Shown here one piece after another: positions 41 to 4,096 of a stretch of 64,000 bases of DNA. Source of the DNA: Acidimicrobiales bacterium (GTDB lineage Bacteria; Actinomycetota; Acidimicrobiia; Acidimicrobiales; Aldehydirespiratoraceae); NCBI GenBank assembly GCA_029263175.1, contig JAJCXZ010000069.1, forward strand, positions 1 through 64,000, read 5' to 3'. Within the stretch, counting starts at the first letter, position 1. The number at the start of each line of letters is the position of its first letter. The translations under genes and the position numbers were made by a program. The notes under the pieces are model-generated. The model did not search any database. It was not told where the DNA came from and saw only the letters and a list, made by a program, of their open reading frames with translations.

Positions 41-679
41 TCATGCGACCTTGTAAGCCTTTCCCTCGACAGCCAGTGAATGGGCTGTGGTCAGGTGGAC
101 CACGGCTCTCTTCCCGGTATCGACGTATCGAACAGCGACGAATTCGTCGCTGGGTTGATCTATGCGGAGATGTTGGGAGGTCAATACAGAGATTGTGTCC
201 GTTGAACGGTCAGGCTGTTGTCCGCTGAACTGCCCGGTCACTGTCCGCTCAACCGCCGGGGCGGTGTCCGCTGAACGGCATGGCTCGATGCGTGGGAAGC
301 CGAGTGTCCTCCACACTGTTGAGCCGCGTTTCTTCTCGTCTCGCTCCCACCAGCCGACGGCTTCGGCTTCATGGGCGAGCTTGCCAACTGCCTGACGGCT
401 CGAACCTAGGTCTGCCGCAAGCGTTGAGAGCGAGACGTAGGTCTGCGCGAACCGCGGGTCCTTTACGGAGTAGGTGACGTAGGTCGACAAGGCGAGACCC
501 AAACCGACGCCCGCGGCGCTCGTTCGTCGACGTGGAAATGCTAGATGGCCGTATTCGCGAAACACGCGCCTCCACACGTCGACAGGGTGGCCAGTCGTAC
601 TCATGCCGAGGCCGGTCACCCAAGGAGGCAGACCGAATGCGTCGAGCAGCGAAACGCACACATCGTTGGTTCCGGTCAC
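41..679 (-). CDS. HTH protein, possible replication initiator of the element
   Basis: This 212-residue protein has no family I can name with certainty. Residues about 81-115 form a winged-helix-like HTH (SLSTLAADLGSSRQAVGKL followed by a basic wing), the kind found in N-terminal domains of phage and plasmid replication proteins. Residues about 135-162 are encoded by four iteron-like DNA repeats, and a short C-terminal domain follows. The layout (HTH, internal iterons, C-terminal domain) resembles lambda O, whose origin lies inside its own gene; that parallel is inference. The start used is GTG at 679; ATG at 604 is an alternative, and neither has a clear Shine-Dalgarno sequence. A transcription regulator is the main alternative. 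Confidence 0.55.
   Translation of the reverse strand: MTGTNDVCVSLLDAFGLPPWVTGLGMSTTGHPVDVWRRVFREYGHLAFPRRRTSAAGVGLGLALSTYVTYSVKDPRFAQTYVSLSTLAADLGSSRQAVGKLAHEAEAVGWWERDEKKRGSTVWRTLGFPRIEPCRSADTAPAVERTVTGQFSGQQPDRSTDTISVLTSQHLRIDQPSDEFVAVRYVDTGKRAVVHLTTAHSLAVEGKAYKVA
196..287 (+). repeat. Four iteron-like direct repeats, 23-bp period
   Basis: Four copies of a 12-bp core with consensus TGTCCGCTGAAC begin at 196, 219, 242 and 265, exactly 23 bp apart. The copies at 219 and 265 are identical; those at 196 and 242 differ by one base each. The 11-bp spacers are not conserved. Because 23 is not a multiple of three, the copies are read in three different frames of the overlapping gene and give unrelated peptides, so the conservation is at DNA level. 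Regular same-orientation spacing near two helical turns is typical of initiator-binding iterons. Confidence 0.75.
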
Positions 680-780: not shown

Positions 781-1164
781 TCATGCCGCATCGCTGGTGG
801 CCGCTAGGGTGATTTCGAGGGCCAAGAGGCGAATCTCAATCTCCTCAGCGTCACGCCAGCGCAACGCCGAGTCCAACACCGTCCTCGCTGCACCCAAGCG
901 CACTGACGGCGGCTGACTGGCGTCCAGCAGTTCGCTGAGCGTGTCAACGGCCCGACCGGTCGTTGCACACAACCGCGCTGTCGTTCGGGAAATCAGTTCC
1001 TGCTGAGCCTCCTCGACCCGAGCTACGAAATCGGTGTCATCACAACGCCGATACACGGTCCGCTCGCTCACCCCGGCAGCTTCGGCTGCCTCCTCTTTGG
1101 TTGAGCCTCCCGCGAGCGACGCGACCAACACCGCATCGGCTCTGCGTCTGCCGTCACCTGACAC
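781..1164 (-). CDS. Small HTH protein, terminase-small-subunit-like or regulator
   Basis: This 127-residue protein has an N-terminal helix-turn-helix (GSTKEEAAEAAGVSERTVYRR, about residues 20-40) followed by a helical region. Proteins of this shape occur in phages and integrative elements as small-terminase-like or resolvase-type HTH proteins, but no specific function can be read. Its start overlaps the end of the upstream gene by 11 bases, so the two are probably cotranscribed. The position inside the integrative element supports an accessory or regulatory role. Confidence 0.6.
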   Translation of the reverse strand: MSGDGRRRADAVLVASLAGGSTKEEAAEAAGVSERTVYRRCDDTDFVARVEEAQQELISRTTARLCATTGRAVDTLSELLDASQPPSVRLGAARTVLDSALRWRDAEEIEIRLLALEITLAATSDAA

Positions 1165-1525
1165 TGTCCGCCACCTCGTCTCGAACCTTGGTCACCTGAT
1201 CGAGGAGTTCTGCTCCCGTGGCCATTTGTGAGAAGCCGACAATCCACGTCCAATCTGAGAAGGTCCTATCGGCCGGTCTCTTGGCCTCTGCTTCCGAGCG
1301 GCAAAACTCGTCGAGCCTTTCGAGGCTCTCCATGACGCCCGTGGCGATATCTTCGTCGCTGAGTTTCTTGCTAGGAGGATCAGCCAGGTGGCGCTCACAG
1401 TGCGGACAGGACATATCTGATCGAAGTCTTGCTAGCCGGGTTGTCGCTCTGTGCATCACACTTCGAATCCGCTGAATCGTGTCAGATCTGACGGGACTTA
1501 CGTGACCGCATGGGTGAGCGTTCAA
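1154..1525 (-). CDS. Hypothetical protein with a CxxC motif
   Basis: This 123-residue protein is not recognised. It contains CPHCERHL near residue 40, which could be half of a zinc knuckle, then an acidic helical stretch and a Trp-rich segment (DWTWIVGF). It overlaps the start of the HTH gene at 781-1164. The start is uncertain: internal ATG codons at 1456 and 1414 would remove the basic N-terminus and leave the CPHC motif close to the beginning. It belongs to the integrative element. Confidence 0.5.
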   Translation of the reverse strand: MNAHPCGHVSPVRSDTIQRIRSVMHRATTRLARLRSDMSCPHCERHLADPPSKKLSDEDIATGVMESLERLDEFCRSEAEAKRPADRTFSDWTWIVGFSQMATGAELLDQVTKVRDEVADSVR

Positions 1526-1617: not shown

Positions 1618-1836
1618 CTACGCCGGCTCCGGTAGATCAGGTTCACCGAGATCGAGCATCCGAGCGAGGGCCGCAGTCGGGATCACGAGTCGTCGCCCGA
1701 GTCGGATTGAGGGGATCTCTCCTGCCTGAACTGCCTGGTAGGCGCTACCGCGGGAGATGTGTAGGACTTCGGCAGCCTCTGACACTGACATCACGGGCTG
1801 CACACTCGCGTCGAGGAAGTGTGGGACTAGGTTCAC
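1618..1836 (-). CDS. Excisionase-like HTH protein
   Basis: This 72-residue protein has the MerR-like winged-helix signature of the excisionase (Xis/HTH_17) family: SVSEAAEVLHISRGSAY, then GEIPSIRLGRRLVIP as the wing. Such proteins bind DNA near att sites and direct element excision, or act as small regulators. The GTG start at 1836 is preceded by AAGGAGC at a spacing of about seven bases, which supports it. It is divergent from the gene at 1981, and a palindrome-rich control region separates them. Function as the Xis partner of the nearby integrase is inferred from family and position. Confidence 0.8.
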   Translation of the reverse strand: MNLVPHFLDASVQPVMSVSEAAEVLHISRGSAYQAVQAGEIPSIRLGRRLVIPTAALARMLDLGEPDLPEPA

Positions 1837-1980: not shown

Positions 1981-2643
1981 ATGGCGGTCATTCGCTTTGA
2001 GGTCGGCGGAGGCGGGTGGGCCAGGTACACCGAGCGGTCGAAGAGTCTCAGCGCCGAGGTGATGGTCCGGTTTGTCGTAGATCCTTTAGATGGGCGGGCG
2101 CAGGCTGTTCAGGCCGTCGTCTCGCGCGGCGACAACGGAGCGGAAGTGGCCCTCGGAGAAACGATGCGCCGCGTCCGCTGGGGCAAGATCGAAGCCTTCG
2201 CCAACCAGCCAGACTCACTACGGCTGCTCCAGGAACGCATCGATGAGGACATCGAGATTATGCTCGTGGCGACCGGCGACGAGGATCGTGAAAATACTCC
2301 GGAGACTGCGGCAAAGGTAGCCGAAGGAGCGTTTCACGAAGCTCTGAAACGAGCTAAGACGTTTGCTGACAGTGCAGTCGCCTCCGCCGCCGCTCCATGG
2401 GAGACGGCGAGTCTTGGCCCTCGACGAAGTCCGAAGCTGAGGGTTCCAGACGGCGGCAAGTACCCGGACTCCTTCTACAAGGACTTCGCAGAGGTGCACT
2501 CATCGCTGGCAGCGGAGGGCGCATCGCCCGCAGCAATCATCTCGGACGCCAACGGGGTAGCCCGAACAACGGTGCACAGGTGGGCGAAAGAAGCCAGACG
2601 AAGAGGACTCCTTGGACCCGGACGGAGAGGTCAAACAGGATGA
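1981..2643 (+). CDS. Unknown element protein with C-terminal HTH
   Basis: This 220-residue protein has no recognisable N-terminal domain; that part is mixed beta and acidic helix. The C-terminal third (residues about 165-220) contains a conserved-looking aromatic segment (PDSFYKDF) and an HTH (DANGVARTTVHRWAKEARRRG), ending in a basic tail. GAAAGGA lies about eight bases upstream of the ATG. The stop overlaps the integrase start in an ATGA at 2640-2643, so the two are translationally coupled. In actinobacterial elements such genes directly before a tyrosine integrase often encode DNA-binding partners, so a role in recombination or its control is plausible but not shown. Confidence 0.6.
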   Translation: MAVIRFEVGGGGWARYTERSKSLSAEVMVRFVVDPLDGRAQAVQAVVSRGDNGAEVALGETMRRVRWGKIEAFANQPDSLRLLQERIDEDIEIMLVATGDEDRENTPETAAKVAEGAFHEALKRAKTFADSAVASAAAPWETASLGPRRSPKLRVPDGGKYPDSFYKDFAEVHSSLAAEGASPAAIISDANGVARTTVHRWAKEARRRGLLGPGRRGQTG

Positions 2644-3800
2644 GTGGGCGCGGCAGTATCAAGAAGGACGATTCGGGCCGCTGGATGTTCGTCGTCGATG
2701 TTTCGGCCGGGCAGGGCCGACGACAGGTTCGACGCCGGGGTTTCGAAACGAAGAAGGCAGCTCAGGAAGCCCTAACGCAGCTACTTACAGAGATGCGCTC
2801 TGGTGCATGGGTCGAGCCGTCAAAGCAGACCCTGGCCGAATATCTGGTCGAGTGGACTGAGACGATCAAATCCACAGTGAGGGAGTCGACGCACTTTTCC
2901 TATGGACGTAACATCCGGTTGCACGTGATTCCGCGAATCGGCCAGATTCCACTCCAGGAGGTCGACGCAGGAGTTCTGAACTCCCTATACGCCGAACTAC
3001 TTCGAGACGGGCACCGAACAAAGCCAGGCGGCCTAGCACCGCGAACGGTTCGATACATACACACGATCCTTCACCGAGCGTTCAGAGATGCCACCAGGTG
3101 GGGACGACTGAGTCGGAACATCGCCGATGCAGCAGATCCACCCCGCGGCGGTCCAAGAGTTGAGATCGTGACTTGGTCTGCCGAGTCGGTCGGTCGATTC
3201 TTGAAGCAGAGCCGACATGAGGGCGACTCGTACGTCGCAGCATGGGAGCTGATCGCAACCACGGGAATGCGTCGTGGTGAGGCTCTTGGTTTGAGATGGG
3301 CAGACGTTGACCTAGATGAAGCGGTGCTGGCGATCCGACAAACCGTCGTCACTGTCAACCACGAGGTGCGGTACGGCACACCCAAGACGAAAGCTGGAAA
3401 CCGCAGAATCGATCTCGATCTCCGGACCATTGCGGCGCTCCGCGCCCATCGCAAACGCCAGAACGAAGAACGGCTCCTCATTGGCACCGGATGGAGGGAG
3501 AACGACCTGGTGTTCTGCAAGGTCGATGGCGAACCACTGCACCCGGACCATTTCTCTCGCGAGTTCGTCCGACGCGTTGCCCGGTGGCAGTTTCCGAAGC
3601 TTTCACTTCAGGGTCTGCGCCATACGTGGGCCACGCTGGCCTTGAAAGCTGGCGTACATCCCAAAGTCGTTCAGGAGCGCCTCGGGCACTCCACCATCGC
3701 GATCACGCTCGACACCTACTCTCACGTGACGGCCGGGATGCAGGCCGATGCAGCGGCGACGGTCGCCGAGATCATCGCTGGGACCGCGCACCTGGAGTGA
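2640..3800 (+). CDS. Tyrosine recombinase (integrase)
   Basis: The protein is 386 residues, normal for an actinobacterial phage-type integrase. It has an N-terminal arm-binding segment, a SAM-like core-binding domain (about 60-160) and a catalytic domain. Catalytic positions visible are Arg211 (TGMRRGEALGL), a beta-hairpin Lys (TPKTKAGNRR), Arg327 (LQGLRHTWATL), His350 (LGHS) and nucleophile Tyr360 (LDTYSHV). The usual His of the HxxR box is Gln324, which is uncommon. The ATG at 2640 is chosen because it forms an ATGA overlap with the upstream gene, although the frame is open further upstream. The gene ends 212 bases from the tRNA-Leu 3' end, its presumed target. Confidence 0.93.
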   Translation: MSGRGSIKKDDSGRWMFVVDVSAGQGRRQVRRRGFETKKAAQEALTQLLTEMRSGAWVEPSKQTLAEYLVEWTETIKSTVRESTHFSYGRNIRLHVIPRIGQIPLQEVDAGVLNSLYAELLRDGHRTKPGGLAPRTVRYIHTILHRAFRDATRWGRLSRNIADAADPPRGGPRVEIVTWSAESVGRFLKQSRHEGDSYVAAWELIATTGMRRGEALGLRWADVDLDEAVLAIRQTVVTVNHEVRYGTPKTKAGNRRIDLDLRTIAALRAHRKRQNEERLLIGTGWRENDLVFCKVDGEPLHPDHFSREFVRRVARWQFPKLSLQGLRHTWATLALKAGVHPKVVQERLGHSTIAITLDTYSHVTAGMQADAAATVAEIIAGTAHLE

Positions 3801-3963: not shown

Positions 3964-4012
3964 GTTCGCCCAAATCAATCGCTTCGCAGGCTCCTGACCT
4001 GCGACTTCGTTG

Positions 4013-4096
4013 TGCGGACGGGGGGATTTGAACCCCCACACCCTTCCGGGCACCAGGACCTAAACCTGGCGTGTCTGCCAATTCCACCACGTCCGC
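4013..4096 (-). tRNA. tRNA-Leu (anticodon UAG)
   Basis: The minus strand folds as an 84-nt cloverleaf. The acceptor stem GCGGACG (4090-4096) pairs with CGTCCGC (4014-4020), and the discriminator A is at 4013. The anticodon stem CCAGG/CCTGG encloses the loop TTTAGGT, giving anticodon TAG. A long variable arm and the T-arm motif GGTTCAAATCC are present. CCA is not encoded. The 3' end faces the integrase, so this gene is the probable attachment site. Confidence 0.97.

Follow-up and report, generated by a model that had tools for sequence, protein, structure and literature searches.

We consider it likely, with a probability of roughly 80%, that the beginning of this stretch of DNA contains an iteron origin that lies within the gene for its own initiator, a phage-type replisome organizer. 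The analysis covered the whole 64-kb stretch (64,000 nucleotides, hereafter the window), which forms the start of contig C69 in a genome of 4.4 Mb and 111 contigs. Four copies of a 12-bp repeat, TGTCCGYTSAAC, were identified at 196-276 inside the open reading frame at 41-679 on the minus strand, and the spacing of successive copies was exactly 23, 23, and 23 bp. The gene and the features within it are as follows:

41-679, minus strand: putative initiator gene, 212 aa, with a predicted winged-helix, an iteron linker, and a short C-terminal tail; no direct Pfam or PHROG match
141-207, no strand: putative DNA-unwinding segment with the lowest G+C of the gene, 3' of the array in the coding orientation and overlapping copy 1
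196-207, plus strand: iteron copy 1, TGTCCGTTGAAC, proximal to the low-G+C segment
219-230, plus strand: iteron copy 2, TGTCCGCTGAAC
242-253, plus strand: iteron copy 3, TGTCCGCTCAAC
265-276, plus strand: iteron copy 4, TGTCCGCTGAAC

Repeat array and coding gene

The earlier note had described four 12-bp repeats every 23 bp, two identical and two with one change, and this description was confirmed at 196, 219, 242, and 265, with the identical copies at 219-230 and 265-276. The range that it gave, 196-287, was correct at its start, but the array proper ended at 276. With at most one mismatch allowed, the motif had four matches in the 64-kb window, all in the array, whereas dinucleotide shuffles of the window yielded a mean of 0.51 matches and never reached four. 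Paired copies 10-12 bp apart occurred in the 4.4-Mb genome only in this array, and the reversed control pattern gave a count of 0.

The copies started at gene nucleotides 404, 427, 450, and 473, corresponding to phases 2, 1, 0, and 2; all three reading frames were thus used, and two copies shared one frame. Synonymous-codon shuffles of the gene, in which the protein and codon usage were held constant, never attained the observed score of 46/48 (0/200; maximum 40), and neither did mononucleotide shuffles (0/200; maximum 35). The array is not explained by the protein sequence. Because codon shuffling that preserves the protein never reproduced the array, selection on the DNA rather than on the peptide is the sensible reading, as the earlier note had argued from the use of all three frames.

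The encoded protein comprises a predicted winged-helix N-terminal domain (approximately aa 30-130), a linker carrying the iterons (aa 135-162), and a C-terminal tail of approximately 51 aa that is conserved in close homologues. In the homologues as in the window protein, the array occupies the linker immediately after the predicted winged-helix domain; the domain boundary was taken from homology and a low-confidence model. Searches of the protein against Pfam and PHROG gave no significant match and no replication family, and its two close homologues (L003 and L004) likewise had no match in either collection. A PDB sequence search returned nothing meaningful, and the AlphaFold2 model built from three sequences had a pLDDT of 41, too low for a fold search. 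A weak match to MprA (E 0.0033) was far below the cut-off. Since neither Pfam nor PHROG gives the protein itself a significant match, the label of HTH protein that it had received in the earlier note depends on the homologues, from which a winged-helix is predicted. The winged-helix fold of the protein itself is accordingly a prediction from sequence.

At the C-terminus (window 41-140), the protein shares with L003 and L004 a short conserved tail after the variable linker, with GKA..A at its end. This conserved tail is a candidate for helicase recruitment.

Element, homologues, and replication slot

The genes next to the array form the right arm of an integrated element, the left arm of which was lost at the contig end (base 1). 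The remaining features of this arm are as follows:

781-1164, minus strand: terminase-small-subunit-like HTH protein (phrog_2538, E 2.4e-8)
1154-1525, minus strand: small ORF with no family match
1618-1836, minus strand: excisionase-like HTH_17 protein (PF12728, E 6.1e-12)
1981-2643, plus strand: protein with an HTH, encoded upstream of the integrase; L004/L010 and L046 have an ORF at the same place
2640-3800, plus strand: tyrosine integrase (PF00589, 1.2e-19; phrog_1, 2.9e-74)
4012-4096, minus strand: tRNA-Leu, probably the site of integration, at the element's right end; no second att copy was located

Candidate PICIs have been defined by integration machinery together with a capsid gene (PMC10654092). 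Integrase and excisionase genes at a tRNA gene are present in the window element; an HK97-type capsid gene is present in its relatives, and the only copy in its own genome lies in the other element, on contig C58. Like candidate PICIs and phiRv1/phiRv2-like actinobacterial elements, these elements are short and tRNA-integrated, with an integrase, an HTH_17 excisionase, and an HK97-type capsid (relatives L010, L008, L046, and L047); the difference is that no capsid was seen in the window element, which is truncated by the contig end at base 1. A tRNA-integrated element of the candidate-PICI type is the best reading, and the element may still be mobile. The array might instead be a former origin, built as we describe, in an element that has decayed and no longer functions. 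In favour of decay, just one genome was seen to contain the element, the contig end truncates it, and no second att copy emerged. Against it, the right-arm ORFs remain open, the repeats are close to perfect, and the initiator gene has an uninterrupted frame of 212 aa; decay appears very improbable.

A family search of 51 genomes yielded two homologues of the protein, L003 and L004, in other genera (39% identity, E 4.5e-19 and 1.1e-16). They belong to the Acidimicrobiales MAGs OFTM10 and OFTM81 and share 36% identity with the window protein over the N-terminal domain. The genome collection contained no homologues beyond these two. No relatives emerged when the viral collection was scanned for the protein and the repeats, searches of named phage and plasmid records with the window and L003 proteins were likewise negative, and an order-wide search returned weak profile matches, mostly large unrelated ORFs. 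In L004/L010, the order is integrase, HTH gene, excisionase, iteron gene, SWIM protein, and capsid, at a tRNA-Leu; in L003/L008/L009, a WhiB protein and the capsid lie on one side and the integrase and a tRNA-Pro on the other.

The linkers of L003 and L004 are longer than that of the window protein, encode other peptides, and contain ACCTGCCC repeats, the last copies of which are 26, 23, and 22 bp apart. The window motif runs opposite to its gene, unlike the repeats of these two homologues. The array position and the rough period were kept, whereas the repeat sequence and the encoded peptides differed. This is the opposite of the case that the earlier note had named as a refutation, namely homologues that lack the repeats while keeping the peptides. 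The 23-bp periodicity that it proposed for related elements was found at the same gene position, but the period was kept only roughly (22-26 bp between the last copies). Palindromic TGCCCC-N7-GGGGCA sites also occur in the repeat linker of L003 (1236-1458) and L004 (1942-2108); palindromes of this type are absent from the window array.

A weaker homologue, L014/L047 (E 5.2e-4), was found in a complete genome of another family; by hhalign, L014 matched the window family at 81.5% (E 1.1e-5, 37% over 67 columns). Its gene lies between the excisionase and capsid genes, with the integrase at the element end. The L014 protein matched HTH_36 (1.9e-8) and a run of replication-initiation and O-like PHROGs, the best being 'replication initiation O-like' (1.2e-11). 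Through these matches, L014 provides an indirect link between the window protein and the O-like replication-initiation family. The L014 linker carries AGTCCCGAAC repeats 24, 56, 21, and 21 bp apart, which are partly in frame and encode a repeated peptide; because 1/200 synonymous shuffles equalled the observed score, the protein could contribute to the repeats in L014, and in L014 only.

The same genome as the window contains a further array on contig C58 (L046), where TCACTGCCCG repeats are spaced by 33, 23, and 23 bp in a gene of the same slot. Since the L046 protein is not alignable to the window family, the agreement consists of synteny and array layout. L046 (1766-7661) is apparently a more complete element, with tRNA-Pro, integrase, HTH gene, excisionase, iteron gene, SWIM-like protein, HNH, and HK97 capsid.

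In other elements of the order, the slot between integrase/excisionase and capsid was occupied by a Prim-Pol (L060), a D5_N/DUF5906 primase (L063), or AAA_25 RepA-like ATPases (L055 and L069). Because a Prim-Pol, a D5-type primase/helicase, and RepA-like ATPases take this place in sibling elements, we regard the slot as a replication module that can be occupied by replication genes of unrelated families. This occupancy bears on another reading of the array, in which the winged-helix protein would be a MarR/MprA-like regulator repressing its own operon through the repeats as intragenic operators. The weak MprA match points in that direction, and many small winged-helix proteins of such elements are regulators. 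At least four phased sites deep inside a gene would, however, be unusual for operators, and the L014 matches to replication-initiation PHROGs, together with a slot otherwise filled by replication genes, make regulation unlikely.

A terminase-small-like gene (781-1164) lies directly upstream of the iteron gene in the window; none was noticed there in four other elements. Packaging sites of the pac or cos type can lie inside genes and contain repeats, and the TerS-like neighbour (E 2.4e-8) might recognise the array as such a site. We consider this highly unlikely: the four other elements retain the array, although no TerS-like gene was noticed beside it; its position is always behind the HTH-coding part of the gene that fills this slot; and the layout is shared by lambda O and the Pseudomonas phage gene L072. 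Arm-type integrase sites were also considered and were rejected because in every element several genes separate the array from the integrase end.

Comparison with known origins and proposed mechanism

An origin inside the initiator gene is a layout already known from lambda and SPP1, and the window gene would be a highly diverged case of it. In a control, the same script applied to lambda O recovered the known iterons and the A+T-rich segment (24% G+C) right behind them. Ori-lambda resembles the window array in having four iterons in the linker behind a winged-helix, at annotated spacings of 20/24/23 bp against 23/23/23 bp, and a low-G+C segment directly 3' of the iterons. The likeness to lambda O drawn in the earlier note was borne out by the homologue arrays, the O-like PHROG match of L014, the replication genes in the slot, and the 3' dip in G+C. 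Several differences were also evident. Direct search detected no homology between lambda O and the window protein; approximately 155 aa follow the array in lambda O compared with approximately 51 aa in the window protein (about 44-63 aa across these proteins); lambda has a P-like loader gene, whereas none was seen near the window gene in an element cut at base 1; and the segment of 24% G+C in lambda compares with 48% in the window, a much weaker A+T bias.

In SPP1, oriL lies inside gene 38, which encodes the replisome organizer gp38, and comprises direct repeats and an A+T-rich unwinding element within the initiator gene (PMC6316719). The window shares with SPP1 repeats and a low-G+C segment inside the initiator gene; SPP1 differs in having its own loader gp39, helicase gp40, and a second origin, and the likeness drawn here is one of layout. 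L072, a Pseudomonas phage gene annotated 'replisome organizer', contained AACGGGGTGCA in three exact copies at 22-bp steps and one more 40 bp before them. These in-gene repeats (40, 22, and 22 bp) are followed by the G+C minimum of the gene, as in the layout seen here, but L072 and L073 come from complete phages, in which they have replicative helicase genes as neighbours.

The segment at 141-207 had 46-48% G+C (50-bp windows) compared with 61% for the whole gene. Across five elements, the dip was 46-50% compared with 61-64%, always on the same (3') side of the array, and it was the gene-wide minimum in three of the five. With lambda O and L072 included, a low-G+C segment lay 3' of the array in all seven genes. 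The dip was not significant in the window alone (p = 0.13); the combined value over the five elements (p = 0.006) is only indicative, because both the dip test and its 40-nt search range were settled once the pattern had already come to light, and because the five genes include two close homologues.

In lambda and SPP1, the initiator assembles on phased iterons, the adjacent segment is opened, and the helicase is loaded (PMC7466680, PMC6316719). We consider a comparable sequence of events the most likely for the window element. The protein would bind the repeats in its own gene, and the linker-coding DNA would double as the origin. Integrase and excisionase would release the element from the tRNA-Leu site, and the phased sites would then be occupied by multiple protein copies, which would bind through their N-terminal winged-helix domains and wrap the DNA; because 23 bp is about two helical turns, the bound copies would lie roughly on one face. 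Strand opening would follow in the low-G+C segment 3' of the array, and the helicase and primase of the host or a helper phage would be recruited for theta replication. DNA binding, strand opening, and helicase recruitment are thus putative activities of the protein.

No helicase or helicase-loader gene was found among the examined ORFs of the window element, the left part of which is cut off, or of its relatives. The earlier note had called the element self-replicating; this is not supported, given that no such gene was seen, that a lambda-O-sized C-terminal domain is lacking, and that the contig end cuts the element. The element may depend on proteins from the host or a helper; alternatively, a loader gene may lie in the missing left arm. 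A narrower proposal, which is possible but somewhat doubtful, is a minimal single-gene replicon in which a winged-helix protein of 190-300 aa has linker DNA serving as the origin, with neither a lambda-O-sized C-terminal domain nor a loader or helicase gene. Because these components are lacking, such an initiator would recruit the helicase of the host or a helper phage by its short tail.

The protein family and its candidate-satellite setting appear undescribed in the sources searched, a scope outside which most subscription journals fell. If the reading of an origin within the initiator gene is true, it describes a replication module that goes undetected by family searches in prophage-like and satellite elements of actinobacteria. 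Because a phased linker array reveals function where Pfam and PHROG give no match, it would serve as a sequence-independent marker for origins in unannotated elements. Bacteria for which genetic tools are scarce would also gain a very small replicon.

Other repeats in the order

Short repeats were located directly behind the replication genes of L060 (4327-4489; GTCCCCCCTAG) and L069 (4567-4739; GGTGAGTTCCC in both orientations), and these repeats are probably origins. Most of the 23 further capsid-gene regions listed in a survey looked like full prophages or fragments, some with other replication genes, and a strict three-copy filter revealed no further array in a wHTH gene among them. The repeats of L053 were rejected as a comparable array since they look like DnaA boxes and probably mark a chromosomal origin. 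G140 (L048) was rejected as a relative because it proved to be a plasmid-like contig whose 8-bp repeat lies outside the initiator gene. Its near-perfect 8-bp repeats, TACGTGCC, lie at 3555-3626 on a contig with ParA, relaxase-like, and HTH genes and may represent an origin or a partition site.
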